Assembly: GCA_020793555.1 (NCBI GenBank) | Contig: DQIO01000316.1 | Span: 1 to 11,184 of the forward strand | Source: Methanosarcinaceae archaeon | GTDB lineage: Archaea > Halobacteriota > Methanosarcinia > Methanosarcinales > Methanosarcinaceae | Direction of reading: 5' to 3' | DNA: 11,184 nt | Part shown: piece after piece, positions 1 to 11,184 of the stretch | Numbering within the stretch: the first letter of the stretch is position 1 | How the letters are laid out: each line of letters opens with the position of its first letter | The notes under the pieces: generated by a model | What the model was told of the DNA's origin: nothing | Database searches by the model: none | The model's input: only the letters and a program-made list of their open reading frames with translations | Translations under genes and position numbers: made by a program

Positions 1-396
1 CTTGTGTTAGTACGATAACTTCAGTTTCCCATTTTTCGTTCATGGTAATACCGACAGCACAGTCGATCTCACCCTTTTCAAATAATGATTTTACTATTGC
101 TGATGCCATTGCACCATCCTGACCCGGCAGTTCGCTTTTTGCAGCAAAGAACCGTTGTACGTTTGCAAACTCATCTTCTGCATATCCATCTACAACAGGG
201 CAGACACGACCGCAGGTAAAGCATCCTTCACAAACATTTGGTGCAGCACCTTTCTTATACAAAGATAGGTCATCAGGGTCACGGATTGCTGCAGTAATAT
301 CAACAATAACTGCACCGGCAGGGCATACGGCTTCGCATGCCCCACAAGCAGTACAGACGTCATATTCAATGACTTCCAAGATCTTTGGATGAACCA

Positions 397-397
<1 letters not shown>
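1..397 (-). CDS. fpoF: F420H2 dehydrogenase subunit F (FpoF/FqoF-like), 3' end outside the window
   Basis: This is the first 132 codons of an iron-sulfur F420-oxidising subunit, read leftward from an ATG at 397-395 and cut by the window edge. Two ferredoxin-type [4Fe-4S] motifs are visible: C15-x2-C18-x2-C21-x3-C25-P and C56-x2-C59-x2-C62-x3-C66-P. Then comes the start of the FrhB/FpoF-type flavin and F420 domain (residues about 80 on, with a segment reading AMASAIVKSLFEKGEIDCAV). In the family, FpoF oxidises F420H2 on the cytoplasmic face and passes electrons into the membrane Fpo complex or, in some cases, to ferredoxin. The start overlaps the mer stop codon by one base (TAATG), and a GGAGGG ribosome site lies at 403-408 inside mer. 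In Methanosarcina, as I recall, fpoF also sits beside mer rather than with the other fpo genes. Other FrhB-like proteins cannot be fully excluded because most of the protein is missing. Confidence 0.85.
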
Positions 398-1383
<986 letters not shown>

Positions 1384-1482
1384 TTAAATCCTCCTTACAA
1401 TAATTAATCAATATTCTGTGTTCATACATCTTTAAAACGTTATTGGTTTTGTTTTTAGTATGTTAAGTGTAACCTGATTTAC

Positions 1483-1492
1483 TTTTTATAAT
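1483..1492 (-). promoter_or_regulatory. Possible TATA box for the mer-fpoF transcript
   Basis: Read on the minus strand the sequence is ATTATAAAAA, a good archaeal TATA-like element. It lies about 100 bases before the mer ATG. With a start site about 25 bases downstream it would give a leader of roughly 75 bases. The position is inferred from base composition only, and other A/T-rich stretches in the region could serve instead. Confidence 0.4.
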
Positions 1493-1558
1493 CATCAATG
1501 GGTTAATTATGTTAGTTTTATGATGATATATTCACAAAGCGGGTTTACAACTGCTGGT

Positions 1559-1570
1559 AAATATATTTAT
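1559..1570 (+). promoter_or_regulatory. Possible TATA box for the cupin gene
   Basis: The sequence AAATATATTTAT resembles an archaeal TATA box and lies about 70 bases before the cupin ATG. This would put transcription start near 1595 and leave a leader of about 45 bases. It is a sequence-only prediction. Confidence 0.45.
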
Positions 1571-1639
1571 CATTATTATGTTGATAAGGGAGCGAAATCT
1601 TTTAAAGTATTGACTATTCATTATTTATTGGTGAAATGA

Positions 1640-1963
1640 ATGATTGAAACTGCCTATGAATTCAAGACATCTGATACAAAACTTGTTGAGAAGATAATAA
1701 ACGATGACAATGTTCACATAAACCACATAATATTGGAAAAAGGACAGAACATGCCGGAACACTTTTCCAATTCAAATGTGTACCTTATAATTGTTAAAGG
1801 TGAGATGAGGTTGACATTAAGCGATAATGAACCAAATGACCATATACACGGCTCAATAGTGAATGTTCCATATAACACAAAAATGCTGATCCGGAATGTA
1901 AACACTCCACTGATGGAGTTTTTTGTGTTGAAGTCTCCAAACCCCAAATATTATGAAGAGTAA
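1640..1963 (+). CDS. Small cupin-domain protein, metal ligands not conserved
   Basis: A 107-residue protein with the pattern of a single-domain cupin. A long beta-rich core contains G35-QNMPE-H41, then VYLIIVKGEMRLTL (residues 47-60), which is typical of cupin motif 1 ending in the G of a beta turn. A second motif-like region lies near residues 70-95 (GSIVNVPYNTKMLIRN). In the usual motif two His in HxH and a Glu bind metal. Here only H41 is present, the second His position is S43 and the Glu position is not Glu, so metal-dependent catalysis is doubtful and a binding or sensing role is possible. The start at 1640 has only a weak GGTG ribosome site at 1630-1633. The gene has its own promoter region and is separated by 274 bases from the cluster to the right, so it may not belong to it. 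Its substrate is unknown. Confidence 0.75.
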   Translation: MIETAYEFKTSDTKLVEKIINDDNVHINHIILEKGQNMPEHFSNSNVYLIIVKGEMRLTLSDNEPNDHIHGSIVNVPYNTKMLIRNVNTPLMEFFVLKSPNPKYYEE

Positions 1964-2237
1964 ATCGACTTGCAGTGGGGGGCAAACAATTTGTATCTGG
2001 TCTGTTACCAACACGTATATGTATAGCAAAGTCACACATTATCTTAATAGTTTGAATGTTATTGGGAATGAGATTCAATCTATGTGGGAGAGACATTGTT
2101 TGGTTATTTGTGAGTATGGTGTGAACCAAAGAAAATACACCGTTCGCAGATGCACGAATGGTTATATATATGTCTACTGATATACAGATAAATCCTAAAT
2201 AATATTGACATTTAGACTGTAAAGGGAGGTGAGATTA
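1964..2237. other. Intergenic region before the large cluster, no convincing gene
   Basis: These 274 bases contain an open frame of 75 codons (1953-2180) overlapping the cupin end, but its composition is not protein-like, it has no good ribosome site and I recognise no family. No tRNA, CRISPR repeat or terminator-like T-run is visible. The right end carries a TATA-like box and the leader of the desulforedoxin gene. A small RNA cannot be excluded by eye. Confidence 0.5.
2162..2171 (+). promoter_or_regulatory. Likely TATA box of the oxidative-stress / sulfur cluster
   Basis: TTATATATAT is the strongest TATA-like element between the cupin and desulforedoxin genes. It lies 67 bases before the desulforedoxin ATG, so transcription would start near 2195 with a leader of about 40 bases. 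The following genes have mostly short gaps, so this is the best candidate for the main promoter of the cluster. Confidence 0.55.
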
Positions 2238-2360
2238 ATGGGTGTTTCAGGAATTGGTGAAAAATATCGTTGTAATATTTGTGGCAATGAAGTTGAAGTT
2301 ACAAAAGTAGGCGGCGGTGCTCTTGAATGTTGTGGTGAAGAGATGGAATTAATTAAATAA
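2238..2360 (+). CDS. Desulforedoxin-like protein (40 residues)
   Basis: A very small protein of 40 residues, with an ATG at 2238 preceded by a strong GGGAGGTGA ribosome site at 2224-2232. It shows the desulforedoxin signature: C12-x2-C15 in [12 protein letters not shown], then a GGG turn and the adjacent pair C31-C32 followed by GEEM. These four Cys bind one iron as Fe(SCys)4 in desulforedoxin and in the N-terminal domain of desulfoferrodoxin. The usual desulforedoxin is about 36 residues, so this gene is complete. It probably carries single electrons in the cytoplasm. A one-iron superoxide reductase, the other half of desulfoferrodoxin, is encoded about 930 bases downstream, so the two may work as partners. 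It is the first gene after the likely cluster promoter. Confidence 0.9.
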
Positions 2361-2395
2361 ACCAAAAAATTGGAAGTATTTTAAGGTGAGTATAC

Positions 2396-2608
2396 ATGAA
2401 ATGTTATCAATGTGCTAAAATGGGAAAGGATACGGATGCGGTTGGCATTTGTATAGTGTGTGGAATGGGTTTATGTAAAGATCATCTGAGGCGCGAGGAG
2501 ATTCCCGTATGGGACGGGGACTACCCCGTGCGGTTGAAACCGGATGTGGAGCATATACTAAGAATTATTTGTGAACCGTGTCATGAAGCGCTAATGGAGA
2601 TTTTATGA
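2396..2608 (+). CDS. DUF2180 family protein, first copy
   Basis: This 70-residue protein resembles the archaeal DUF2180 family. It has many potential metal ligands: C3-x2-C6, C19-x2-C22, C27-x2-H30 and C59-x2-C62-H63. This spacing is like that of zinc-binding B-box or ribbon-type domains, so it probably binds two zinc ions. No function is established that I know of. An AAGGTGAG ribosome site lies at 2383-2390. It is followed after nine bases by a paralogue (2618-2839), and the shared core CIVCG-x-GLC is nearly identical between them. The placement among oxygen-defence genes suggests a role in redox sensing or metal/sulfur handling, but this is inference from context only. Confidence 0.8.
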   Translation: MKCYQCAKMGKDTDAVGICIVCGMGLCKDHLRREEIPVWDGDYPVRLKPDVEHILRIICEPCHEALMEIL

Positions 2609-2617
2609 GGTAGTAAT

Positions 2618-2839
2618 ATGTTGAAATGTTACGACTGTATGGAAGAAGGGAAAGACAGTGAGGCAGTGGCCATCTGCATTGTTTGTGGAAAAGGTCTATG
2701 CGATGAACATGCAAAGAGGATGGACCTGCCTATATGGAGTGGAATTAATCCTGCACCTGAGAAAGTGCATAAGAAGGAACTTCCAAGGATCTTGTGCAAT
2801 TATTGTGTTAAACAGATATTGACAGACGCATTCGACTGA
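2618..2839 (+). CDS. DUF2180 family protein, second copy
   Basis: A 73-residue paralogue of the preceding gene. It has the same ligand pattern: C4-x2-C7, C20-x2-C23, C28-x2-H31 and C60-x2-C63. The His that follows the last Cys in the first copy is Val here. Differences are concentrated in the middle segment (residues about 35-56), which is longer and more charged. The GAGG ribosome site at 2607-2610 overlaps the stop of the first copy, so translation of the two is probably linked. The pair looks like an old tandem duplication, as the DNA has diverged well beyond the protein core. They may form a heterodimer. Function is unknown. Confidence 0.8.
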   Translation: MLKCYDCMEEGKDSEAVAICIVCGKGLCDEHAKRMDLPIWSGINPAPEKVHKKELPRILCNYCVKQILTDAFD

Positions 2840-2897
2840 TTACGAATTAAACACATAGATGACACATAGGACATCAATAGAATGGAGATAATTACAT
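2840..2897 (+). repeat. Short direct repeat with 11-base period
   Basis: In this 58-base gap the octamer ACACATAG occurs at 2851-2858 and again at 2862-2869, an 11-base period. A GGAGA ribosome site for the next gene follows at 2884-2888. Two copies one helical turn apart could bind a regulator, but two copies are too few to be sure. Confidence 0.3.
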
Positions 2898-3245
2898 ATG
2901 AGCGAACATGAAGAAATACTGGAAAGTATGAACAAAAAGATGGGGTTCACCCCACCTATTCTGGATACACTTGGGGAACTTGATCCTGAATTTCTGTTAA
3001 AATACCGTCGGTGCGATCACAAGATGTTATCAGATGGTGCACTCTCCGGAAAGGTAAAGCGGTTGATGGCTCTTGCAGTTGTTGCATCCAGACAGTGCAA
3101 TGAATGTACGGTATCCCAGATGAAAAGCGCCCTTAACGCCGGCGCGACAAAAGAGGAGATAATGGAAACCATGGATGTCATTTTCCTGACATCAGGTGCT
3201 CCTTCTGTTGCGGTATGTCGGGATGCTTTGAAAATGTTGAAATGA
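2898..3245 (+). CDS. AhpD / carboxymuconolactone decarboxylase-like protein with altered relay residues
   Basis: A 115-residue, all-helical protein of the CMD/AhpD family. The core helix reads [15 protein letters not shown], with the redox pair C67-x2-C70, then [15 protein letters not shown], which matches the usual AAGAT-x-EE turn of the family. In AhpD the CxxC is oxidised and reduced in peroxide defence, helped by a Glu twelve residues before the first Cys and a His four residues after the second Cys. By spacing these positions are R55 and Q74 here, so the known proton relay is missing. A disulfide reductase or thiol oxidoreductase role remains possible. An extra Cys pair (C39, C107) may also take part. 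The gene lies between the DUF2180 pair and the superoxide reductase gene, which fits a role in oxygen defence. The exact partner and substrate are unknown. Confidence 0.85.
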
Positions 3246-3293
3246 TCGATACAAATTCATCCAGCATTGAAAATAATATATTGGAGGTACAAT

Positions 3294-3665
3294 ATGACTG
3301 AAAAGAGCTTGTTTTGCGGGGTTAACAATCCCGCAGACGCATCAAATCTTACAGATATGGAAAAGAAGCATGTGCCTGTTATTACGGCACCCGATACCGT
3401 GACCGCCGGCGAGGCGTTTGAAGTAACCGTTAAGGTTGGAAGCACACCCCATGGGATGGAAGAAGTTCATCACATTCAGTGGATCGACCTGTATTCAGGT
3501 GGGAACTTTATTACCAAAGTGATACTCACGCCAGTATTTATGACTGCAAAAGCGACTATCAATATGGTCAAAAGCGGAGCGCATGAAACTGCTACACTGC
3601 GTGCGGTCATTCGGTGCAACGTTCATGGAATGTGGGAAAGTGAGAAAGAGATTGCAATCAAGTGA
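3294..3665 (+). CDS. Superoxide reductase, one-iron (neelaredoxin) type
   Basis: The 123-residue product reduces superoxide to hydrogen peroxide without making oxygen, at a cytoplasmic Fe centre with four His and one Cys. The ligands can be placed: H26 in KKHVPVI, H53 in STPHG, H59 in EEVHHI, and C108 with H111 in IRCNVHGMWE. K25, just before H26, corresponds to the conserved catalytic Lys. The usual pattern is E-K-H; here it reads E-K-K-H, so the Glu that caps the resting iron is shifted by one place. The N-terminal desulforedoxin domain of two-iron enzymes is absent, but a separate desulforedoxin is encoded at 2238. I chose the ATG at 3294 because GGAGGT at 3283-3288 lies five bases before it; an in-frame upstream ATG at 3267 has no such site. 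Electrons could come from the desulforedoxin or rubredoxin-like partners in the cluster. Confidence 0.93.
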   Translation: MTEKSLFCGVNNPADASNLTDMEKKHVPVITAPDTVTAGEAFEVTVKVGSTPHGMEEVHHIQWIDLYSGGNFITKVILTPVFMTAKATINMVKSGAHETATLRAVIRCNVHGMWESEKEIAIK

Positions 3666-3683
3666 TTTCGATTAAACAACTTG

Positions 3684-5180
3684 ATGCGTAATGTTTGTAA
3701 GGGGGTATTATCCATTAAACCGAAAATAGTTGTGCTGTTCATTGTATTGATACTGTTTACAGTAACTCCGTCACTTGCAGCAGAACAAACAGCGGATGGT
3801 TCATTATCTTCGGACATGTTTGAACGGGATGGGGAATGCACAAGATGTCATGGTATAATCCATTCCCAGTGGGAAGGGGGGATGCATTCACTCGCCGAGC
3901 TTGATCCGTTTTACAAGATAGAATCTGAGATGGCAAGTAACGACACTGATGGCTTGACCGATACGTACTGTGCACGTTGTCATACACCCATTGGTGTACT
4001 ATCAGGAGAACTACCTCCAGTTGATGGTTCCGAACTGAGTGATATTGCAAAAAGAGGCGTTCAGTGTGACTTCTGTCACACGGTATCAGGCAGTGCGGGA
4101 ATCGGCAATTCACCTTTTATCGTCACACCAGGTAATATAAAATGGGGACCGTTTCCGGATTCAAAATCGCCATATCACGGGTCTGAGTTTTCAGACCTTC
4201 ACACAAAAGCAGAATTCTGCGGCATGTGCCATGATGTAAATCACCCCACAAACGGCTTGCCTCTTGAAGCTACTTACACGGAATGGAAAAACGGACCATA
4301 TTCTAAAGAAGGAGTTCAATGTCAGGATTGCCACATGACACCCGGTGTCACACAATTTGAGGCAAATCCTGGAAAAGCGGCATCAATGGGTCCGGATAGA
4401 GACCACATATATACCCATTATACAGTTGGCGCAAATGCGTTTATAACAGACATTCTTGGAGATGAGACTCACAGGGATATGGCAATTGAGCGCCTCCAGA
4501 GTGCTGCAACGTTGACTGTAAATGCTCCACCATCCGCCGAAGCGGGGGATACCGTAACTGTTGATCTGTCAATCACAAATTCGGGTGCAGGACACATGCT
4601 CCCAACAGGCTTGACAGATATGCGGCAGATGTGGCTGGATGTGACTGCAACAGATGCCGATGGAAACCAGTTCTACCATTCCGGTTCACTTGATGAGAAA
4701 GGAATAATTGAACCTGATGCTGTGGTATATACTACGGTTTTAGGGGATGCGGACGGGAATAAGACCATTAAGGTCTGGTTTGCAGAGAGTATCCTTTCGG
4801 ATAATAGGATATTGCCGAGAGATACTGCTGTCGAGGAACACACGTTCACAATTCCACAAGATGTGAAACATCCTATAACCATTAGTGCTAAGTTGCAATA
4901 CCGCACTGCACCACAGGAAATCATTGACTATTTGTTTGATGATGGCACGTATGATGTACCGGTCATAATCATGGCGCAAGCATCAGATTCGATCAATTCA
5001 CCGGATTTGAATGCAAATGTAAATGTAAATGTAGATGAAGATGAAGATGAAGATAAAGATGTGCAAGCCGATGATACACCAGAGTCCGCACAAGAGTCCA
5101 CACCCGGATTTGGAGCATTCGGACTAATATCTATATTAGCCATCACTGGGCTGTTTGTTCATAGGAAGAGGAGAGTTTAA
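3684..5180 (+). CDS. Pentaheme c-type cytochrome with C-terminal PGF-CTERM surface anchor
   Basis: The product has 498 residues from the ATG at 3684; numbers below count from the TTG one codon upstream. A signal peptide covers about residues 13-34 (KPKIVVLFIVLILF, cleavage likely after SLAA). Five heme sites follow: C53TRCH, C97ARCH, C129DFCH, C180GMCH and C214QDCH, in a domain resembling the cytochrome c554 group, with extra His (H61, H69, H166, H174) as possible distal ligands. Residues about 265-435 look like a beta-sandwich. Then comes an acidic Asn/Val/Asp/Glu linker (444-461) and the motif P475-G-F, a hydrophobic helix and HRKRR, which is the PGF-CTERM signal processed by archaeosortase A. 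The protein therefore probably sits on the outer face, tied to the membrane or S-layer. Methanosarcina has a five-heme cytochrome in a similar setting, as I recall. It may pass electrons to or from extracellular acceptors or defend the surface. The N-terminus is uncertain. Confidence 0.92.
   Translation: MRNVCKGVLSIKPKIVVLFIVLILFTVTPSLAAEQTADGSLSSDMFERDGECTRCHGIIHSQWEGGMHSLAELDPFYKIESEMASNDTDGLTDTYCARCHTPIGVLSGELPPVDGSELSDIAKRGVQCDFCHTVSGSAGIGNSPFIVTPGNIKWGPFPDSKSPYHGSEFSDLHTKAEFCGMCHDVNHPTNGLPLEATYTEWKNGPYSKEGVQCQDCHMTPGVTQFEANPGKAASMGPDRDHIYTHYTVGANAFITDILGDETHRDMAIERLQSAATLTVNAPPSAEAGDTVTVDLSITNSGAGHMLPTGLTDMRQMWLDVTATDADGNQFYHSGSLDEKGIIEPDAVVYTTVLGDADGNKTIKVWFAESILSDNRILPRDTAVEEHTFTIPQDVKHPITISAKLQYRTAPQEIIDYLFDDGTYDVPVIIMAQASDSINSPDLNANVNVNVDEDEDEDKDVQADDTPESAQESTPGFGAFGLISILAITGLFVHRKRRV
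3699..3705 (+). promoter_or_regulatory. Strong ribosome site inside the annotated cytochrome start
   Basis: AAGGGGG lies 15 bases downstream of the ATG at 3684, which itself has no ribosome site. The only codon at suitable distance (eight bases) in the same frame is ATT at 3714-3716. A start there would give a signal peptide beginning with M-K-P-K, which is a better match to typical signal peptides than the 14-residue extension. Chance cannot be excluded. Confidence 0.35.
5010..5063 (+). repeat. Hexanucleotide repeat coding the acidic linker of the cytochrome
   Basis: Nine six-base units run without a break. Four are of the type AATGYA (Asn-Ala/Val), and five are GAT followed by GAA, AAA or GTG (Asp-Glu/Lys/Val). 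They code residues 444-461 of the cytochrome. The unit boundaries match codon pairs, so gain or loss of units would keep the frame and change only the length of the stalk before the membrane anchor. Confidence 0.85.
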
Positions 5181-5184
5181 TCAG

Positions 5185-5436
5185 ATGGTAGGTAAAGAAA
5201 CTGAAATAGCACCAAATAAGATTGAAGATTGCATCGGACTGTTCTGTCCGGTGCCTGTTTTCAACACATCACAGTCTATCAACGATATAGAGATAGGCGA
5301 GGTGTTGGAAGTATTGACAGATGACCCTGCATCCACCAATGATATACCGAGATGGGCTAAAAGGACCGGCAACAAACTGTTGAAATTCGAAGATATGGGC
5401 GATCATTTTCGATTTTTAATTGAAAGAGTGAAATGA
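5185..5436 (+). CDS. TusA/SirA-family sulfur carrier protein
   Basis: An 83-residue protein of the TusA/YeeD family. The signature C21-P-V-P lies in the N-terminal motif D15-C-I-G-L-F-C-P-V-P, followed by an amphipathic helix and the EVLEVLTDDPASTNDIPRWA segment that is typical of the family. C21 is the Cys that carries a persulfide in TusA. An extra Cys (C16) stands five residues before it, where many members have Ala or Val, so a disulfide or second sulfur site is possible. I chose the ATG at 5185 because GGAAGAGGAGAG at 5164-5175 precedes it; a longer frame from 5155 would overlap the cytochrome. Only four bases separate it from the cytochrome stop. The next genes encode DsrE-like, IscS-like and IscU proteins, which suggests it hands sulfur to one of them. 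It is cytoplasmic, unlike the preceding cytochrome. Confidence 0.88.
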   Translation: MVGKETEIAPNKIEDCIGLFCPVPVFNTSQSINDIEIGEVLEVLTDDPASTNDIPRWAKRTGNKLLKFEDMGDHFRFLIERVK

Positions 5437-5445
5437 GGATTTATT

Positions 5446-5811
5446 ATGACTGAACAAAATCTATTATATGTACAGACAAGCGGTGTAAGCACACCTGAGC
5501 GATTGTATTCTCCATTCGTACTTGCACAGACCGCAAAAGCCATGGGAATTGATGCAGCCGTGTATTTTTTGGGAATGGGTATAACCGTTGTCAAAAAAGG
5601 TGAAGCAGAAAAGATACAGATGGGAAGTTTCCCGTCCCTTAATGAGATTATTGACCAGAGCGTTGCCGCAGGAGTAAAACTCTATGTATGCGAAGCATCG
5701 ACACAGTTGATTGGAGTTGACAGGGGCGATTTTATTGAAGGCGTTGAAGTGGTAGGTGCAGCAACCCTGAACGATCTTGTTCTGGATGCCGATGGGACAA
5801 TGTGGTTCTGA
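5446..5811 (+). CDS. DsrE/DsrF-like sulfur transfer protein
   Basis: A 121-residue protein with the alpha/beta fold pattern of the DsrE family: a first strand LLYVQTSG (6-13), a helix with SPFVLAQTAKAMG (22-34), a strand AAVYFLGMGITVVKKG and a strand VKLYVCEAS (78-85). The single Cys, C82, is at the place where DsrE-like proteins carry their reactive sulfur-binding Cys. In sulfur-oxidising bacteria such proteins pass persulfide between TusA and partner enzymes. The GAGG ribosome site at 5435-5438 overlaps the TusA stop, so the two genes are very likely translated together. TusA plus DsrE next to an IscS/IscU pair suggests a relay that supplies sulfur for Fe-S clusters, though direction of transfer cannot be read from sequence. 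I cannot assign a DsrE subgroup. Confidence 0.85.
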   Translation: MTEQNLLYVQTSGVSTPERLYSPFVLAQTAKAMGIDAAVYFLGMGITVVKKGEAEKIQMGSFPSLNEIIDQSVAAGVKLYVCEASTQLIGVDRGDFIEGVEVVGAATLNDLVLDADGTMWF

Positions 5812-5880
5812 ATTGGAAAACATAAGGAATTGAATAATTGAGGGAAGGAGATCCGGGGGATATTAAAATAAAACGAGGTT
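5812..5880 (+). other. Gap before the IscS-like gene with an unused ribosome-site-like motif
   Basis: This 69-base gap contains GGGAAGGAGAT at 5841-5851, a strong ribosome-site sequence. No ATG, GTG or TTG with an open frame follows at a usual distance. GAGG at 5875-5878 serves the next gene. The first motif may be chance or the remains of a lost small gene. Confidence 0.3.
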
Positions 5881-7050
5881 ATGAAATTGAACAGAATCTA
5901 CATGGATAATGCTTCCGGCGCTCCTGTTGATGAGCGTGTGATCGAGAAGATGATGTCGTACATGAAAACCGATGTAGGAAACCCTGCGTCTTTACATGAT
6001 TCAGGTATCAATGCAAGACGGGCGCTTGTGACTGCAAGGGAATCAGTGGCATCCCTTATCAGTGCAGAGAGCGATAATATTATTTTCACATCAGGCGGCA
6101 CGGAATCCAATAATATTGCCCTTCGAGGTGCAGCCCAGAGGAAAAAGAGCAAAGGCAAGCATATTGTCACAACCGTTATCGAGCACATGTCTATTATCAA
6201 CACCTGCAAGGACTTGCAGCGCGAGGGTTTTGAAGTATCATTTGTGCCTGTGGATAAAGACGGGCTTGTTGATGTCGAGCGTATAGAACATGAGATACGC
6301 GATGATACGATCCTGATCTCTGTTATGTATGCGAACGGTGAGATCGGAACTATTCAGCCGATACGTGAAATTGGTGAGATGGCACATGAGAAGGGAATCC
6401 TGTTTCATGTAGATGGAGTTGCGGCATGTGGCAAGATCCCGATCGATGTGCAAAAGGATAACATTGACCTGCTTTCAATCTCATCAAATGACTTGAATGG
6501 TCCAAAAGGTGTTGGTGCATTGTACATTGGCAAAGGTGTGCCAGTCCGTCCGATAATGACAGGAGGCGGGCAGGAAAGAGGTATAAGATCAGGGTCGGAG
6601 AATATCTCTGGAATTGCAGGTTTTGGCAAAGCATGCGAGATCGCAAAAGCAGAAATGGATGCAGATTCTGCTAAGATGATGGAAATTCGTGATCGGATCA
6701 TCGAAAAGGTGCTTGGAACGATCAAATATTCGTATATCACAGGTCACAAGACAAAAAGACTGCCAAATATTGCAAGTATGAGATTTAGTTTCATTGAAGG
6801 TGAGAGTATTATTCTGGGCATAAACGACCTCGGGATAGAGGCATCAACAGGGTCTGCATGTTCTGTGAAAACACTTCAGCCGTCCCATGTTCTCATGTCA
6901 ATAGGACTGCGGCACGAGGAAGCACATGGGTCGCTTCTGCTTTCACTTAACAGGTGGAATACCATTGAAGAGGCGGATTATATTATTGAGAACATTCCCA
7001 GTGTGGTAGACAGGCTTCGTGTGCTGTCGCCATTGTATCCTGGCGAATAA
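5881..7050 (+). CDS. IscS/NifS-like cysteine desulfurase homologue lacking the PLP lysine
   Basis: This 389-residue protein matches class V aminotransferase-fold cysteine desulfurases throughout. Retained family features are SGGTESNN (71-78, phosphate loop), E101-H102 (His stacking on PLP), N152 in ANGEIGTIQ, H176-V-D178-G and the persulfide Cys C327 in STGSACS. However, the usual S-x-H-K-x-x-GPKG reads S202-N203-D204-L-N-GPKG, so the PLP-binding Lys is Asp204. The usual Gln after DAA is A181, and the Arg that binds the substrate carboxylate (GS-x-R-x-S) is L353. An Archaeoglobus fulgidus IscS with Asp for this Lys has been described and forms a complex with IscU. This protein probably does not desulfurate cysteine in the usual way; it may hold sulfur or a cluster with C327 and dock on IscU. 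The GAGG at 5875-5878 is only two bases from the ATG; TTG 5887 (eight bases) is an alternative start. Confidence 0.95.
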   Translation: MKLNRIYMDNASGAPVDERVIEKMMSYMKTDVGNPASLHDSGINARRALVTARESVASLISAESDNIIFTSGGTESNNIALRGAAQRKKSKGKHIVTTVIEHMSIINTCKDLQREGFEVSFVPVDKDGLVDVERIEHEIRDDTILISVMYANGEIGTIQPIREIGEMAHEKGILFHVDGVAACGKIPIDVQKDNIDLLSISSNDLNGPKGVGALYIGKGVPVRPIMTGGGQERGIRSGSENISGIAGFGKACEIAKAEMDADSAKMMEIRDRIIEKVLGTIKYSYITGHKTKRLPNIASMRFSFIEGESIILGINDLGIEASTGSACSVKTLQPSHVLMSIGLRHEEAHGSLLLSLNRWNTIEEADYIIENIPSVVDRLRVLSPLYPGE

Positions 7051-7071
7051 TTGTATAAAGGGGGATTTTGT

Positions 7072-8418
7072 ATGGTAGAACCAATAGAGTACAGTGAAAA
7101 AGTAAAGGATCATTTCAGGAATCCAAGGAATGTTGGTGTCATAAAGGATGCCGATGCAATAGGGCAGGTTGGGAATCCGGTCTGTGGCGATTTGATGGAG
7201 ATTCAACTTAAGGTTGAGGACAATATTATCAAGGATATCAAGTTCCGAACTTTCGGTTGTGCTTCGGCTATTGCCACTTCCAGTATGATAACTGAGATGG
7301 CAAAGGGTATGACACTTAAAGATGCACTGGAGATCACTCGTTCAGATGTTGCGGATGATCTGGGGGGACTGCCGCGCGTTAAGATGCATTGTTCAAACCT
7401 GGCGGCAGATGCGCTACATGCTGCGATAAAGGATTATATGGAAAAGCAGAAAAGCGGTGCAAAAAAACTTGGTGAAAATGAGTATGAGGTCGCAGTTGTT
7501 GGAAGCGGTGCAGCTGGTCTGTCTGCTGCAACTGTATCTGCATACATGGGACTTAAGACCGTTATATTTGAAAGTGATACGTGGGGCGGCATTCTTAACA
7601 ATATGTGCTCGGCTCGATTGATCGAAAATTACCCGGGATTGACTGGCAAGATATCTCCTGCGGGTCTTACAAAATCGTTTCTTGAGGATGCGGAAAACCA
7701 ACAGGTTGACCGAAAAAAAGAGGCTGTAATCAGTATTGATATTGAACAGGAGAGCGGTTTAAAGGTTTTGACAACCGAAGGGGGCACTGGCATTACATAT
7801 AAGGCTAGATTCGTGGTGCTTGCAACAGGAAGCATTCCTGTGGAATCCGGCGTTGTTGGCGAGGAAAAGTTTGCACAGGATGAGGGAGGGGTGTACTATC
7901 TCAGCACTGATCCATCCAAACTTACGGACAAACGGGTACTTATCTATGGCAAAGGATACAATGCGGTTTCGACTGCCGAGTGTCTTTCTGGAATTGTTAA
8001 CAATATCACATTGGTTACGGAAGAAAGTTCATTCAGTGTACCTGAAAAGGTCATGGATAAGGTAAAAGGGATCGAAGCATTGAAAATCATGACATCAACA
8101 GACCTGCTGGAACTGCAAGGTGCAAAGAAAGTTGAAAAAGTAATCTTACAGGATAATACTGAAGATGAGAAACTTGAGATCTATGTTGATGCAGTGGTGC
8201 TTGTAAGCGAACTGAAACCAAACATAAAAGCGGCTGAACATCTTGGGGTCGAGATCGATGAATCCGGTTTTGTCAAGACCGACAAACACCAGCGTACAAA
8301 TATAGATGGTGTTTATGCAGTTGGAAATGTTGTATCTGATGTCGATCTACTTATTGTTGCTGCGGCGCATGGGGCAATTGTTGGGCACGATGTGTACAAC
8401 AGGCTCAAGCCGCAGTAG
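7072..8418 (+). CDS. IscU scaffold fused to a thioredoxin-reductase-like flavoprotein without CxxC
   Basis: The 448-residue product has two parts. Residues 1-125 are a complete IscU: the ligand Cys are C38 (GNPVCGD), C63 (FGCASAIATSS) and C107 (MHCSNLAADA), and D40 is the conserved Asp. LPRVK (100-104) resembles the LPPVK chaperone motif. After a short linker, residues about 138-448 form a two-domain flavoprotein like low-molecular-weight thioredoxin reductase: GSGAAG (144-149, FAD), WGGIL, ENYPG (185-189), ATG (251-253), GKGYNA (293-298, the NAD(P) site position) and GVYAVGN (413-419). The redox CxxC normally near residue 278 is absent (it reads YLSTDPSK), and no HRR NADPH motif is seen. I chose ATG 7072 because GGGGG at 7060-7064 precedes it. 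The gene follows the IscS-like one by 21 bases. The flavin domain could reduce persulfide or iron on the scaffold; this is inference. Confidence 0.93.
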   Translation: MVEPIEYSEKVKDHFRNPRNVGVIKDADAIGQVGNPVCGDLMEIQLKVEDNIIKDIKFRTFGCASAIATSSMITEMAKGMTLKDALEITRSDVADDLGGLPRVKMHCSNLAADALHAAIKDYMEKQKSGAKKLGENEYEVAVVGSGAAGLSAATVSAYMGLKTVIFESDTWGGILNNMCSARLIENYPGLTGKISPAGLTKSFLEDAENQQVDRKKEAVISIDIEQESGLKVLTTEGGTGITYKARFVVLATGSIPVESGVVGEEKFAQDEGGVYYLSTDPSKLTDKRVLIYGKGYNAVSTAECLSGIVNNITLVTEESSFSVPEKVMDKVKGIEALKIMTSTDLLELQGAKKVEKVILQDNTEDEKLEIYVDAVVLVSELKPNIKAAEHLGVEIDESGFVKTDKHQRTNIDGVYAVGNVVSDVDLLIVAAAHGAIVGHDVYNRLKPQ

Positions 8419-8450
8419 TATTGATTTTAGATAAACAGAGATGATAAAAT

Positions 8451-8627
8451 ATGTCACCGGAAATAGATTTGGATAAATGTGATGGAGTCGGAGCATGCGT
8501 TGAAACATGTCCGCTGGATGTATGGGAATTGGTTGACAACAAAGGAGTCGTTGCGCAGCCGGATGATTGTGTCGAGTGTGGTGCGTGTGTTGATGCTTGT
8601 CCGGTGGGAGCAATTACGCTGCCATAA
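8451..8627 (+). CDS. Small ferredoxin, probably [3Fe-4S][4Fe-4S] type
   Basis: A 58-residue two-cluster ferredoxin. The second cluster motif is complete: C40-x2-C43-x2-C46-x3-C50-P. In the first, C10-D-G-V-G-A-C16-x3-C20-P, the second Cys is V13. That pattern usually holds a [3Fe-4S] cluster, giving a seven-iron ferredoxin, although the fourth site can in some proteins be filled otherwise. The remaining fold (CVETCPLDVWEL and CPVGAITL) is standard. The start at 8451 lies 32 bases after the preceding stop, and I see only a weak ribosome site (AGAGATGA at 8437-8444). It lies between the IscU-flavoprotein and the Isf-type flavoprotein, so it is a likely electron carrier between two or more of the flavin enzymes in the cluster. 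Confidence 0.92.
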   Translation: MSPEIDLDKCDGVGACVETCPLDVWELVDNKGVVAQPDDCVECGACVDACPVGAITLP

Positions 8628-8676
8628 ACGACATTACATAATAATGGGTATGTGAGTTATAGTGAAAGGAGTGAAA

Positions 8677-9300
8677 ATGTCTGATAATGATAATACCATA
8701 AAAGTTCTGGGTATATCCGGAAGTCCAAGGAAAAAAGCGACCGATCATGTAGTGAAAGAAGCGTTAAGGTTTGCGGAGGAGAATTTTTCGGTAGAGACTG
8801 ATTATTTCTCTGCAAGCGGGAAAACACTGAATTTCTGTATCCATTGTGATTTTTGCATTCGCAAAAAAGAGGGGTGCATTCACAAGGACGATATGGTCGA
8901 GTTGTATAAGAAAATGATCTGGGCAGATGCATGGGTAATCGGTACTCCTGTGTATCAGGGAACGCTCAGTGGTCAGACAAAGGTTATGATGGATCGATGC
9001 CGCGCGATCGTTGCGCGCGACCCGAAGGTGTTCTTGAACAAGGTTGGTATGGCAGCCGCTGATGGCGGTGACCGTGTTGGTGGGCAGGAACCTGCGATCC
9101 AGACCATTCTCAACTTTTATGTGATAAGTGAGATGATCCCTGTTGCGGGAGGGTCGTTCGGGGCGAACCTTGGTGGTACGTTATGGTCTAAGGATAAGGG
9201 GGCAGAGGGTGTGTCTGAGGATTCAGAAGGGCTCAGGAGTCTGCACCGATCGGTGAATAAATTGATTAGTACCGCAAAGATCATGAAAGGCATTCAATGA
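8677..9300 (+). CDS. Iron-sulfur flavoprotein (Isf type, NADPH-dependent FMN reductase fold)
   Basis: A 207-residue flavodoxin-like protein. GISGSPRKKATDH (12-24) is the FMN phosphate loop, and TPVYQGTLSGQTK, with KVMMDR after it, is the second flavin-binding segment of the FMN reductase family. The compact Cys motif C54-x2-C57-x2-C60-x6-C67 marks the Isf subgroup, which binds one [4Fe-4S] cluster. In the best-studied Isf the last spacing is five, so this member has one extra residue. Isf takes electrons from ferredoxin and has been linked to reduction of O2 and H2O2 in Methanosarcina. I chose ATG 8677 because GGAG at 8668-8671 lies five bases before it; an in-frame GTG at 8662 lies ahead of that site. 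A ferredoxin gene precedes it and an FNR-like gene follows immediately. Confidence 0.9.
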   Translation: MSDNDNTIKVLGISGSPRKKATDHVVKEALRFAEENFSVETDYFSASGKTLNFCIHCDFCIRKKEGCIHKDDMVELYKKMIWADAWVIGTPVYQGTLSGQTKVMMDRCRAIVARDPKVFLNKVGMAAADGGDRVGGQEPAIQTILNFYVISEMIPVAGGSFGANLGGTLWSKDKGAEGVSEDSEGLRSLHRSVNKLISTAKIMKGIQ

Positions 9301-10014
9301 ATGGAGGCATTGCCTGTGGAATTCACAGCAAATTTGACAGAGATCATACAGCGAACCTATGATATCAAGAGTTTCAGGTTCAATCGACATGCCGGATTTG
9401 ATTACAAAGCCGGACAGTTCATGTTTGTTACAATAACGATTCTTGGTGAAAAAGTACGCAAGCCTTTTACGATTTCCAGTAGTCCGACCGAAAATGATCA
9501 TCTAGAATTTACCAAGAAGCTCACGGGACATGATTTTTCCAATGAGCTTGATGCGATGGCTGTTGGTGATACTTTGGATATCGATGGTCCCTACGGGAAT
9601 TTAACATTTGAGGGTGAGTATGACAAAATCGCACTGATTAGTGGTGGTATCGGTATCACGCCAATGATTAGTATATGCAAGTATTGTGCTGATGCGGGAC
9701 TTGATACAAAAGTTACAATAATCAGCAGTAATAAAATGCAGGATGATATTGTTTTTGGAGCTGAACTTGACAAAATGGAACGTGGGAACAAAAACCTGAA
9801 GGTTGTTCACACTTTGACACGGGCAGGTGATACTTGGCAGGGTTGTCGGGAACGGATATGTGAAAGTCTGATCATTCGCGAAATACCGGATTACAAAGAG
9901 TTTGTGTTCTATCTATGCGGTCCGCCTGTAATGCTTGATTCTATGGTTTCGATATTGGACAGTCTTGGCATCCCGAAGGAGCAGGTTAAACAGGAATCGT
10001 TCGTGGGATATTGA
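9301..10014 (+). CDS. FNR-family FAD/NAD(P)-binding oxidoreductase
   Basis: A 237-residue protein with the two ferredoxin-NADP reductase domains and no Fe-S domain. The FAD site is R53-K-P-F-T-I-S59 and the GDTLDIDGPYGN stretch near 89-100. The NAD(P) domain shows GGIGITPM (115-122), and CGPPVMLD (206-213) is the usual nicotinamide-side motif. The C-terminal ESFVGY ends in a Tyr that may cover the flavin. It probably moves electrons between NAD(P)H and ferredoxin, the Isf-type flavoprotein or the rubrerythrin. The ATG at 9301 follows the Isf stop with no gap and has no clear ribosome site. GGAGG at 9303-9307 lies eight bases before GTG 9316, which would give a 232-residue protein starting at EFTANLTE, so the true start may be 9316. 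Its electron partner cannot be read from sequence. Confidence 0.9.
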   Translation: MEALPVEFTANLTEIIQRTYDIKSFRFNRHAGFDYKAGQFMFVTITILGEKVRKPFTISSSPTENDHLEFTKKLTGHDFSNELDAMAVGDTLDIDGPYGNLTFEGEYDKIALISGGIGITPMISICKYCADAGLDTKVTIISSNKMQDDIVFGAELDKMERGNKNLKVVHTLTRAGDTWQGCRERICESLIIREIPDYKEFVFYLCGPPVMLDSMVSILDSLGIPKEQVKQESFVGY

Positions 10015-10065
10015 ATTATGCACTAATTTGAATATTAATGATAAGGAAAAAGGAGATGGAAATGT

Positions 10066-10641
10066 ATGGTATGTTTGGAAGGAACACAGACTGAAAAGAA
10101 CTTATTAACTGCATTTGCAGGAGAATCACAGGCAAGAAACCGCTATACATATTTTGCATCGGCTGCGAAAAAAGCGGGGTATGAACAGATTGCAGGAATC
10201 TTTTTGGAAACGGCTGACAACGAGAAAGAGCATGCAAAAAGGTTATTCAAGTTCCTTGAAGGCGGAGAAGTGGAGATAACAGGTTCATTCCCTGCCGGTG
10301 TCATCGGAGATACAAAGTCAAATCTTGAAGCGTCAGCCGATGGTGAGAATCATGAGCATACTGTGATGTATCCTGAATTTGCCGAAATTGCACAAAAAGA
10401 AGGTTTTTTGGAGATTGCATCGGTTTTTAAGAATATCGGTGTGGCGGAGCAGGCTCATGAGGGACGATACCGCGCTTTGATAGACAATATCGATAATGGG
10501 GCGGTGTTTAAGCGGAATACTGTTATTAAATGGAAATGCCGCAATTGTGGTTATGTTCATGAAGGTACGGAGGCTTTGGAGATGTGTCCGGCATGTGCAC
10601 ATGAGAGGGCATATTTCGAGGTTTGGGCACGGAATTATTGA
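10066..10641 (+). CDS. Rubrerythrin
   Basis: A full-length 191-residue rubrerythrin, which reduces hydrogen peroxide to water at a cytoplasmic diiron site using electrons from its own rubredoxin centre. The diiron ligands fit the family spacing: E20 (AGESQARNRY), E53 and H56 (NEKEHAKRL), E94 and E97 (ENHEH), E128 and H131 (AEQAHEGRY). The C-terminal rubredoxin-like domain has C158-x2-C161 and C174-x2-C177 (WKCRNCGYVHEG, CPACAHERAYFE). The ATG at 10066 is preceded by AGGAG at 10051-10055, ten bases away; an ATG at 10062 is out of frame. It completes the superoxide reductase step by removing the peroxide that SOR makes, and the FNR-like protein just upstream is a possible reductase for it. The 51-base gap upstream is A/T-rich and could hold an internal promoter. 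Confidence 0.95.
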   Translation: MVCLEGTQTEKNLLTAFAGESQARNRYTYFASAAKKAGYEQIAGIFLETADNEKEHAKRLFKFLEGGEVEITGSFPAGVIGDTKSNLEASADGENHEHTVMYPEFAEIAQKEGFLEIASVFKNIGVAEQAHEGRYRALIDNIDNGAVFKRNTVIKWKCRNCGYVHEGTEALEMCPACAHERAYFEVWARNY

Positions 10642-10665
10642 GTATTTTTAGAATTTATAACAGGA

Positions 10666-10671
10666 AGGAGG
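10666..10671 (+). promoter_or_regulatory. Ribosome site deciding a TTG start for the AfpA-like gene
   Basis: AGGAGG lies seven bases before the TTG at 10679. No in-frame ATG occurs for the next 21 codons, and those codons carry the conserved N-terminal flavin loop, so TTG is the likely start. Confidence 0.75.
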
Positions 10672-10678
10672 CTAGAAG

Positions 10679-11184
10679 TTGAAACGGATCGCATGGGGAA
10701 TTACAGGGTCAGGTGACTTGATACGTGACACTTATGAGGTTATGGTTGACATTAAGAACAAAACCAATGTTGAGGTAATGGTGTTTTTGTCAAAGGAAGG
10801 TGAAACAGTGATGAAGTGGTATCGTATGTGGGATGATATCCAGCGTGATTTCCCGAATTTCAAGGTAGATGCAGGACCAAATTCGCCTTTTATTGCAGGA
10901 CCGCTTCAGGTAGGGCATTATGATCTATTGTTGATAGCACCTACAACTGCAAACTCAGTGGCTAAAATGGTTTGCGGAATTGCGGATTCGCTTGTTACAA
11001 ATGTAGTTGCGCAGACTGCAAAAGGAGATACCCCTATCTATATACTGCCTGTGGATCGGGTTATGGGTACTGTGAAGACCGTGGCACCGAATGGACGTGA
11101 GATGAATCTGAAGATGCGAGAGGTGGATGTGTCAAACACGGAAAAACTTGCACAGATGGAAAATATCACGGTGCTGAACAGCCC
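10679..11184 (+). CDS. afpA: Archaeoflavoprotein (AfpA-like), 3' end outside the window
   Basis: The first 168 codons of a flavoprotein of the AfpA/dihydromethanopterin-reductase-like family are present, beginning with a TTG at 10679 and cut by the window edge. The N-terminal strand and loop read AWGITGSGDLIRDTYEVM. The central motif APTTANSVAKMVCGIADSL, about residues 89-107, is the hallmark of flavoproteins of the flavin-dependent decarboxylase/DmrB/AfpA type. VYIL-like strand YILPVDR follows. AfpA of Archaeoglobus fulgidus is an FMN protein that accepts electrons from ferredoxin, and a relation to Isf has been proposed. Having Isf, ferredoxin and AfpA genes in one cluster fits that. The related DmrB (dihydromethanopterin reductase) has the same fold, and I cannot fully separate the two from this part alone. 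The ferredoxin-type clusters of DmrX are not seen in the visible part. Confidence 0.8.
   Translation, partial: MKRIAWGITGSGDLIRDTYEVMVDIKNKTNVEVMVFLSKEGETVMKWYRMWDDIQRDFPNFKVDAGPNSPFIAGPLQVGHYDLLLIAPTTANSVAKMVCGIADSLVTNVVAQTAKGDTPIYILPVDRVMGTVKTVAPNGREMNLKMREVDVSNTEKLAQMENITVLNS

Follow-up and report, generated by a model that had tools for sequence, protein, structure and literature searches.

An IscU scaffold fused to a CxxC-less flavoprotein, with a lysine-less IscS partner, in ANME-type archaea

Why would an iron–sulfur scaffold carry a flavoprotein in the same chain, and what might the flavin do there? The question is raised by a contig of a Methanosarcinaceae archaeon (assembly GCA_020793555.1, contig DQIO01000316.1, positions 1–11,184; the window is this whole stretch of 11,184 nucleotides), in which a single unbroken forward-strand frame runs from an ATG at 7072 to a stop at 8418 and encodes 448 residues. 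Pfam recognizes both halves of the protein, NifU_N at residues 6–127 (3.7e-49) and Pyr_redox_2 at residues 138–434 (3.4e-31), which confirms the one uninterrupted IscU-plus-flavoprotein frame described in the initial annotation. An alternative in-frame start, TTG at 7051, immediately follows the stop of the upstream gene, and the starts of homologues cluster near the ATG. The predicted structure of the fusion has a mean pLDDT of 88.6 and a pTM of 0.71, with the relative placement of the two domains unsure. Conservation was scored in alignment A4, which comprises 100 of the 157 proteins then known, 84 of its rows being fused, and in 131 fused proteins found among the matches listed (a set clustered at 90% identity) in protein searches that covered the best 120 of 1960, 4087 and 3135 matches. 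The features on which the argument rests are as follows.

5155..5436 (+): TusA-family sulfur carrier (Pfam), with the Cys of its CPxP motif at 5245–5247
5446..5811 (+): DsrE-family sulfur carrier (Pfam), with a Cys at 5689–5691
5881..7050 (+): IscS/NifS-like partner, 389 residues, closest solved relative A. fulgidus 4eb5
6490..6492 (+): Asp204 codon of the IscS-like protein, replacing the PLP lysine (alignment of partners)
6859..6861 (+): Cys327 codon of the IscS-like protein, in the loop STGSACS (alignment of partners)
7072..8418 (+): fusion of IscU with an FNR-like flavoprotein, 448 residues from ATG 7072; in-frame TTG at 7051
7087..7452 (+): IscU (NifU_N) domain, residues 6–127
7183..7392 (+): scaffold-site residues C38, D40, C63, K104, H106 and C107, each in 84/84 fused rows of A4
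7453..7479 (+): short linker, residues 128–136, the gap between the Pfam domains (pLDDT blocks of 71–79 in the predicted model)
7480..8406 (+): FAD/NAD(P)-type two-domain flavoprotein lacking CxxC, residues 137–445 (Pfam, profile and fold searches)
7606..7608 (+): Cys179 codon, invariant in fused proteins, in the column of BsFNR Tyr50 (flavin si-face)
7900..7917 (+): LSTDPS, residues 277–282, about where thioredoxin reductases have CxxC
8017..8022 (+): T316 and E317, replacing the H-R of the NADPH motif (A4)

The fusion is real and not a chimera. Of 185 genomes of the order, 42 carry it in full length (counting G446, where the gene ends at a contig edge after residue 432). Occurrence in this assembly alone, which the initial annotation had named as fatal to its reading, is thereby rejected. 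This distribution, the 131 listed proteins and the conserved gene order refute an assembly error or a chance read-through of two genes, which we regard as next to impossible. Two named records, L011 (on a 169-kb contig) and L012, hold the protein at 96% and 90% identity over the flavin domain, with the same gene order as the window. The architecture is as unusual as had been claimed; no report of an IscU–thioredoxin reductase fusion, or of an IscU fusion in ANME archaea, was recognized among the open-access papers listed.

A search with the whole fusion protein matches 45 of the 185 genomes at E 1e-60 or better, three of which (G408, G505 and G507) hold only fragments. Within the window's family (f1), genus g1 has the full-length gene in three of seven genomes, genus g138 matches in two of two, and no match was found in any other f1 genus among the 185 genomes; the remaining f1 genera are presumably methanogens. 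The full-length fusion occurs in 9 of 17 genomes of family f2, and in family f3 it is found in 28 of 31 genomes of genus g11, 0 of 2 of g12 and 0 of 1 of g149. It is absent from G409 (f2, 99% complete) and G342 (f3, g12, 95%), and several other misses are incomplete genomes. A sample of 392 genomes of the phylum yielded seven matches, every one inside this order. A contig scan, which relied on two peptide patterns from the flavin domain and could let a distant fusion escape, returned 46 loci with a relative. Thirty-seven are fusion loci, with record titles naming Methanosarcinaceae, Methanosarcinales, the ANME-2 cluster, Methanoperedens/Methanoperedenaceae, uncultured archaeon and, once, Euryarchaeota; the other nine are relatives at 22–24% in Aegiribacteria/Fermentibacteria. 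The named records that bear the gene are Methanosarcinaceae MAGs, ANME-2 cluster archaea and Candidatus Methanoperedens. Among the genomes searched, the fusion appears to be confined to ANME-type lineages, and the window would represent ANME-3. A gene at 397–1383 (−) of the window encodes Mer, the F420-dependent methylenetetrahydromethanopterin reductase, with 537 bits against TIGR03555, a sign of a methane-metabolising archaeon.

The IscU half passes the profiles PF01592 (166.5 bits; cutoff 22) and TIGR03419 (200.1; cutoff 187.9) and does not reach the narrow-sense IscU profile TIGR01999 (144.1 bits vs 192.4); its best solved relatives include 7c8m and 4eb5_C. All four scaffold-site residues singled out in the initial annotation (C38, C63, C107 and D40) are present and belong to the invariant set of A4, and the three scaffold cysteines are also invariant in 131/131 listed fused proteins. 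In an IscU tree of 65 sequences and 124 columns, poorly resolved (stars on 6 of its 60 inner branches), the fused rows cluster with a support of 81, the shortened gene of G408 among them. Many fusion-bearing genomes also have a stand-alone IscU, and the window genome carries on another contig a canonical pair, an IscS with the lysine and a 125-residue IscU.

The flavin half scores best against thioredoxin reductases, both by sequence and by fold, the fold-search matches of the fusion being all taken up by this half, and the window protein (P0001) scores higher against thioredoxin reductases than against FNRs. It does not reach the thioredoxin reductase profile TIGR01292 (177.1 bits vs 343.45). 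Unlike low-Mr thioredoxin reductases, none of the 131 listed fused proteins has the redox CxxC; the stretch reads YYLSTDPS in the window protein, as the initial annotation had noticed. The 23 fused flavin domains included in a tree cluster in a single clade (SH-aLRT 100), which groups with stand-alone proteins without CxxC; the tree thus supports one common origin for the flavin domain of the fusion. The most divergent fused protein, P0139, with ~50% identity to the window's, lies on a deep unresolved branch within this clade. We reject the reading in which a thioredoxin reductase shed its CxxC on being fused, since the nearest unfused relatives are themselves CxxC-less and it is with these that the fused proteins group. 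The flavin half belongs to a branch of CxxC-less, FNR-like flavoproteins.

TrxR-type FNRs (Bacillus FNR, 3lzw/6gas; the T. thermophilus TrxR-like protein, 2zbw) are likewise CxxC-less two-domain flavoproteins, and the fusion has the same loop length as far as the NYPG stretch. For one stand-alone archaeal relative the best solved match is 2zbw, the other three of the best four are deposited as FNR, and thioredoxin reductases come close behind. The fusion differs from TrxR-type FNRs in having a Cys for the si-face Tyr, in the absence of a C-terminal extension, in the fused IscU and, in the window clade, in the loss of the NADPH motif. The extension, which covers the flavin re-face, is a described feature of TrxR-type FNRs (PMC10526003); residue 422 of the 448 in the query aligns with residue 288 of the 332 in 3lzw, and the query ends ~18 residues short.

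The initial annotation held the flavoprotein to be without redox cysteines. This is incorrect: Cys179 of the flavin domain is invariant in 131/131 listed fused proteins, as it is in 84/84 fused rows of A4. In unfused relatives the loop reads LYPxK, and its Tyr, which lies in the same column, aligns without a gap to Tyr50 of Bacillus subtilis FNR (3lzw; residue number counted on the chain), a residue that stacks on the flavin si-face at 3.3 Å (PMC10526003). Cys179 is therefore predicted by alignment to sit over the si-face of the flavin. P0001 is closer to thioredoxin reductases than to FNRs, so this alignment needs the unfused relatives as a bridge. Among 118 listed proteins without an IscU part, the column holds Tyr in 77, a gap in 35 (mostly CxxC reductases), Leu in one and Cys in five; these five are Methanoperedens-type proteins that either start in the linker (P0122, P0126 and P0129) or are cut short (P0133 and P0134). 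Because the Cys is found in all fused proteins and in no complete unfused protein among those listed, the change from Tyr to Cys goes with the fusion; all fused proteins descend from one ancestor, and it counts as one event, not many. Npsr and CoADR belong to another branch of the flavoprotein superfamily. They offer a parallel in which one si-face Cys is combined with a sulfur-accepting Cys on a fused domain, a parallel drawn for the fusion by alignment; they differ in having a rhodanese domain where the fusion has IscU, and in using CoA as carrier. PMC7969121 describes a si-face catalytic Cys as used by pyridine-nucleotide disulfide oxidoreductases, and in Npsr the sulfur-accepting Cys of the fused rhodanese domain as feeding the si-face Cys via CoA. 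By analogy, the fusion would operate like Npsr, by convergence.

The motifs for the electron donor vary among the fused proteins. The window protein lacks the HRR motif, as first annotated. Among the 84 fused rows of A4, position 316 is H in 38 and C in 11, and most Methanoperedens-type rows still have GGGxSA. In every one of the 32 ANME-2/-3-type rows, position 316 is T, with loss of HRR, position 296 is Y, which turns the GGGxxA loop into GxGY, and position 419 is N in place of the Asp of the GD motif. Glycines G144, G146 and G149 of the FAD site are invariant in 84/84 rows. The window clade, whose branch in the flavin-domain tree is long (0.68), might use a different donor, for example F420H2 or ferredoxin; the HRR loss and the N for D in the GD motif also mean that its flavin domain may be weakened. 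Directly 3′ of the fusion, at 8662–10014, the window encodes an FMN reductase-like flavoprotein and an FAD/NAD ferredoxin-reductase-like protein, a possible electron route to the fusion; both genes are kept in L011 and L012, and the FMN reductase also in L013.

The partner encoded upstream is no ordinary cysteine desulfurase. An IscS gene can be seen in 37 loci (the window and 36 others; L035 starts too near a contig edge to show it). Among these, IscU follows IscS immediately in 37/37, the Schiff-base lysine that binds PLP in cysteine desulfurases is replaced by Asp in 37/37, and the sulfur-carrying loop Cys is retained in 37/37. The best solved relative of the window IscS is A. fulgidus 4eb5 (2e-135), and the A. 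fulgidus IscS–IscU complex (4eb5, 4eb7) shares with it both the Asp-for-Lys replacement and the retained loop Cys; IscU in that structure is a separate 153-residue chain with no flavoprotein fused, whereas the window IscU is fused. By these sequence features the window partner qualifies as an A. fulgidus-type lysine-less IscS. The A. fulgidus protein, with the same replacement, has no desulfurase activity and gives a Cys ligand to a [2Fe-2S] cluster, and M. acetivorans IscS1 is likewise without the lysine and its IscU1 oversized at 24.2 kDa (PMC7585200). By analogy, the window IscS is probably unable to make persulfide from cysteine.

A DsrE gene lies upstream of IscS in 34/37 fusion loci; of the exceptions, L021 and L032 are contig edges and L034 is a true one. 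TusA lies upstream in 12/37, all of ANME-2/-3 type. In the 2 kb ahead of the IscS gene, none of the 25 Methanoperedens-type loci that have this gene shows a TusA match, several of these loci having less than 2 kb of flank. The partner lacks the PLP lysine and stands behind DsrE and TusA genes; persulfide therefore need not derive from cysteine desulfuration. The operon is flanked, at 2898–5180 and 10066–10641, by genes for an AhpD-like protein, a superoxide reductase-like protein, a multihaem cytochrome c ending in an anchor-like C-terminus, and rubrerythrin, an oxygen-defence setting.

The association of lysine loss with sulfur carriers extends beyond the fusion. From other genomes of the phylum we collected 40 regions, two genomes contributing two each; they were drawn from a list of over 150 matches ranked by how closely the IscS resembles that of the window. 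TusA and/or DsrE genes lie within 2 kb upstream of 30/31 lysine-less IscS genes and of 0/10 lysine-bearing ones. The count takes in matches of at least 250 bits and 600 bases, which leaves out, for instance, a weak additional IscS-like gene in L173 and, in L159, the smaller fragment of a split gene. The lysine-less proteins comprise 30 with Asp and one with Gln, and L175 has neither TusA nor DsrE. Fisher's test gives p of about 1e-8, for rows that are related and events that are not independent. In L198 (G257), where Gln replaces the lysine (SGNQLGGPDG), both DsrE and TusA lie upstream. A third set, of 30 loci from 21 genomes plus the canonical IscS of the window genome, with flanks in nearly all cases of only about 1.5 kb, has TusA/DsrE upstream of 4/4 Asp-type, 3/4 Thr-type and 0/23 Lys-type genes. 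The CPxP pattern of TusA is present in 12/12 matches in fusion loci and 27/27 in the 40 regions. The Cys pattern of DsrE is found in 33/34 matches in fusion loci and in 15/24 in the 40 regions; part of the wider set therefore has another DsrE motif or no such Cys. TusA/DsrE with a lysine-less IscS is a general archaeal operon that reaches beyond the fusion. We found no open-access paper that mentions TusA, DsrE, IscS and IscU together with archaea; two name TusA and DsrE along with cysteine desulfurase, methanogens and archaea. The main text of PMC8351635, which deals with how methanogens and alkanotrophs handle iron and sulfur, does not mention IscU, IscS, TusA, DsrE or NifU.

Several of these operons differ in what accompanies the scaffold. 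In L176 and L181 (family f16), genes for a CxxC-bearing TrxR-type flavoprotein, a glutaredoxin-like protein and an Nfu-type protein (Pfam names from L176 only) lie directly upstream of TusA, DsrE, Asp-type IscS and IscU; this separate-reductase neighbourhood occurs in 2/40 regions, and the third f16 region, L175, is without it. The arrangement suggests that the machine uses a reductase, as expected if a thiol or persulfide reductase is needed, one that was later fused in ANME-type lineages. In family f38, two of the five genomes looked at (G414 and G416) have the operon with an unfused 131-residue IscU, and only lysine-bearing IscS genes were found in the other three. G408 (L125, 1158–1574) has TusA, DsrE and Asp-type IscS upstream of an IscU with linker that stops just inside the FAD domain, and appears to have lost the flavin part. 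In two genomes of f6, genus g22 (L189, 5211–6005, and L190), the frame continues from IscU into a single degenerate Rossmann domain with no FAD domain, a remnant that resembles the second domain of the fused flavoprotein; in L189 Pfam gives it a weak FMO-like match only. With the flavin part absent or degenerate in G414, G416, G408 and f6, it is therefore not always needed. In three methanogen-type loci (L119, 2665–3300; L120, 846–1490; L121, 2665–3303), IscU carries a C-terminal extra domain of ~80 residues and the adjoining IscS has Thr for Lys (HTIHGPRG). Such an extended IscU stands beside the Thr-type IscS in 3/4 Thr loci looked at; the extra domain is Pfam FeS_assembly_P in L119 and no flavoprotein. 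M. acetivorans IscS1/IscU1 shares the lysine-less IscS with the window, while the extra part of IscU in L119–L121 is unlike the fusion's flavoprotein. These pairs are perhaps of the M. acetivorans IscS1/IscU1 type.

We propose, with a probability of about 45%, that the fusion is the scaffold subunit of a persulfide-fed, lysine-less IscS–IscU machine with a built-in flavin reductase. Sulfur would most likely arrive as persulfide via TusA and DsrE; the loop Cys of the IscS-like protein would accept it and hand it on to the IscU cysteines. An external donor would reduce the flavin of the fusion, which would then give two electrons, probably via the si-face Cys179, splitting the persulfide and releasing sulfide at the scaffold. 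The flavin as electron source, the core of the initial annotation, remains the best reading. Of this mechanism, the data establish only the anatomy: the fusion and its distribution over lineages, the order of the genes, and which residues are present and conserved. Several observations weigh against it: the lost HRR and the N for D in the window clade (32/32 rows); the unfused IscU of two f38 genomes; the G408 and f6 variants, which make flavin activity dispensable somewhere; the lack of TusA matches in the 2 kb or less of upstream flank of the 25 Methanoperedens-type loci; and the position of P0001 nearer to thioredoxin reductases than to FNRs, with Cys179 aligned by way of unfused relatives. 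Direct use of sulfide, as proposed for such archaea, would also make persulfide reduction needless.

Alternatively, the flavin may power a later step, either the reductive joining of two [2Fe-2S] clusters to one [4Fe-4S] cluster or the maintenance of ferrous iron, with sulfide used directly and the Asp-type IscS providing only a Cys ligand. A. fulgidus IscS does give such a ligand to the [2Fe-2S] cluster and is not believed to be the sulfur source (PMC7585200; PMC9769115), and sulfide is usable by the archaeal SMS system (PMC12192291). We nevertheless judge a later step unlikely: the association of lysine-less IscS with TusA/DsrE points to sulfane-sulfur delivery, and a Cys179 in all listed fused proteins would fit thiol or persulfide chemistry better than outer-sphere transfer. 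That the flavin domain of the window clade is decaying or structural, with little catalysis, seems improbable. The lost HRR, the GxGY loop and N419 in 32/32 rows, the 0.68 branch, and the losses or remnants in G408 and f6 all speak for decay, yet the FAD-site glycines and Cys179 are invariant (84/84) and the frame is intact in 14 full-length f1 and f2 genomes.

Still less probable, in our estimate, is a role in repair or protection, in which the flavin domain reduces scaffold cysteines oxidized to disulfide or sulfenate after exposure to oxygen. Around the operon, the window, L011 and L012 all have superoxide reductase, AhpD-like (CMD) and rubrerythrin genes; several ANME-2 loci have CMD and superoxide reductase genes nearby. 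In 26 Methanoperedens-type loci, however, CMD and superoxide reductase were not found (flanks of up to 8 kb, some much shorter) and rubrerythrin-like matches occur in only four (L025, L028, L030 and L043), with DsrE, Asp-type IscS and the fusion kept. Repair would also leave the change in the partner IscS in need of a separate explanation.

The persulfide-fed reading may also be extended, tentatively and with the odds leaning against it, to a widespread archaeal PLP-independent route in which sulfane sulfur from TusA/DsrE passes through a non-desulfurating IscS relay to IscU. The ANME-type scaffold would then be fused to its own persulfide reductase, an FNR-like flavoprotein whose si-face Cys has converged on the geometry of disulfide and persulfide reductases. 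The reach of the fusion is wider than the initial annotation saw. Together with the lysine-less IscS, it bears on the source of electrons for persulfide reduction on IscU, which a single expressed operon makes testable, with Cys179 as a precise mutant target. The link between lysine loss and TusA/DsrE also suggests what the IscS of A. fulgidus, long known to be odd, and IscS1 of Methanosarcina might do. The same operon bears on how archaea living amid abundant sulfide provide their many Fe-S enzymes with sulfur; if the PLP-independent route is true, zero-valent sulfur, environmental or intracellular, would take the place of cysteine as the sulfur source of these cofactors.
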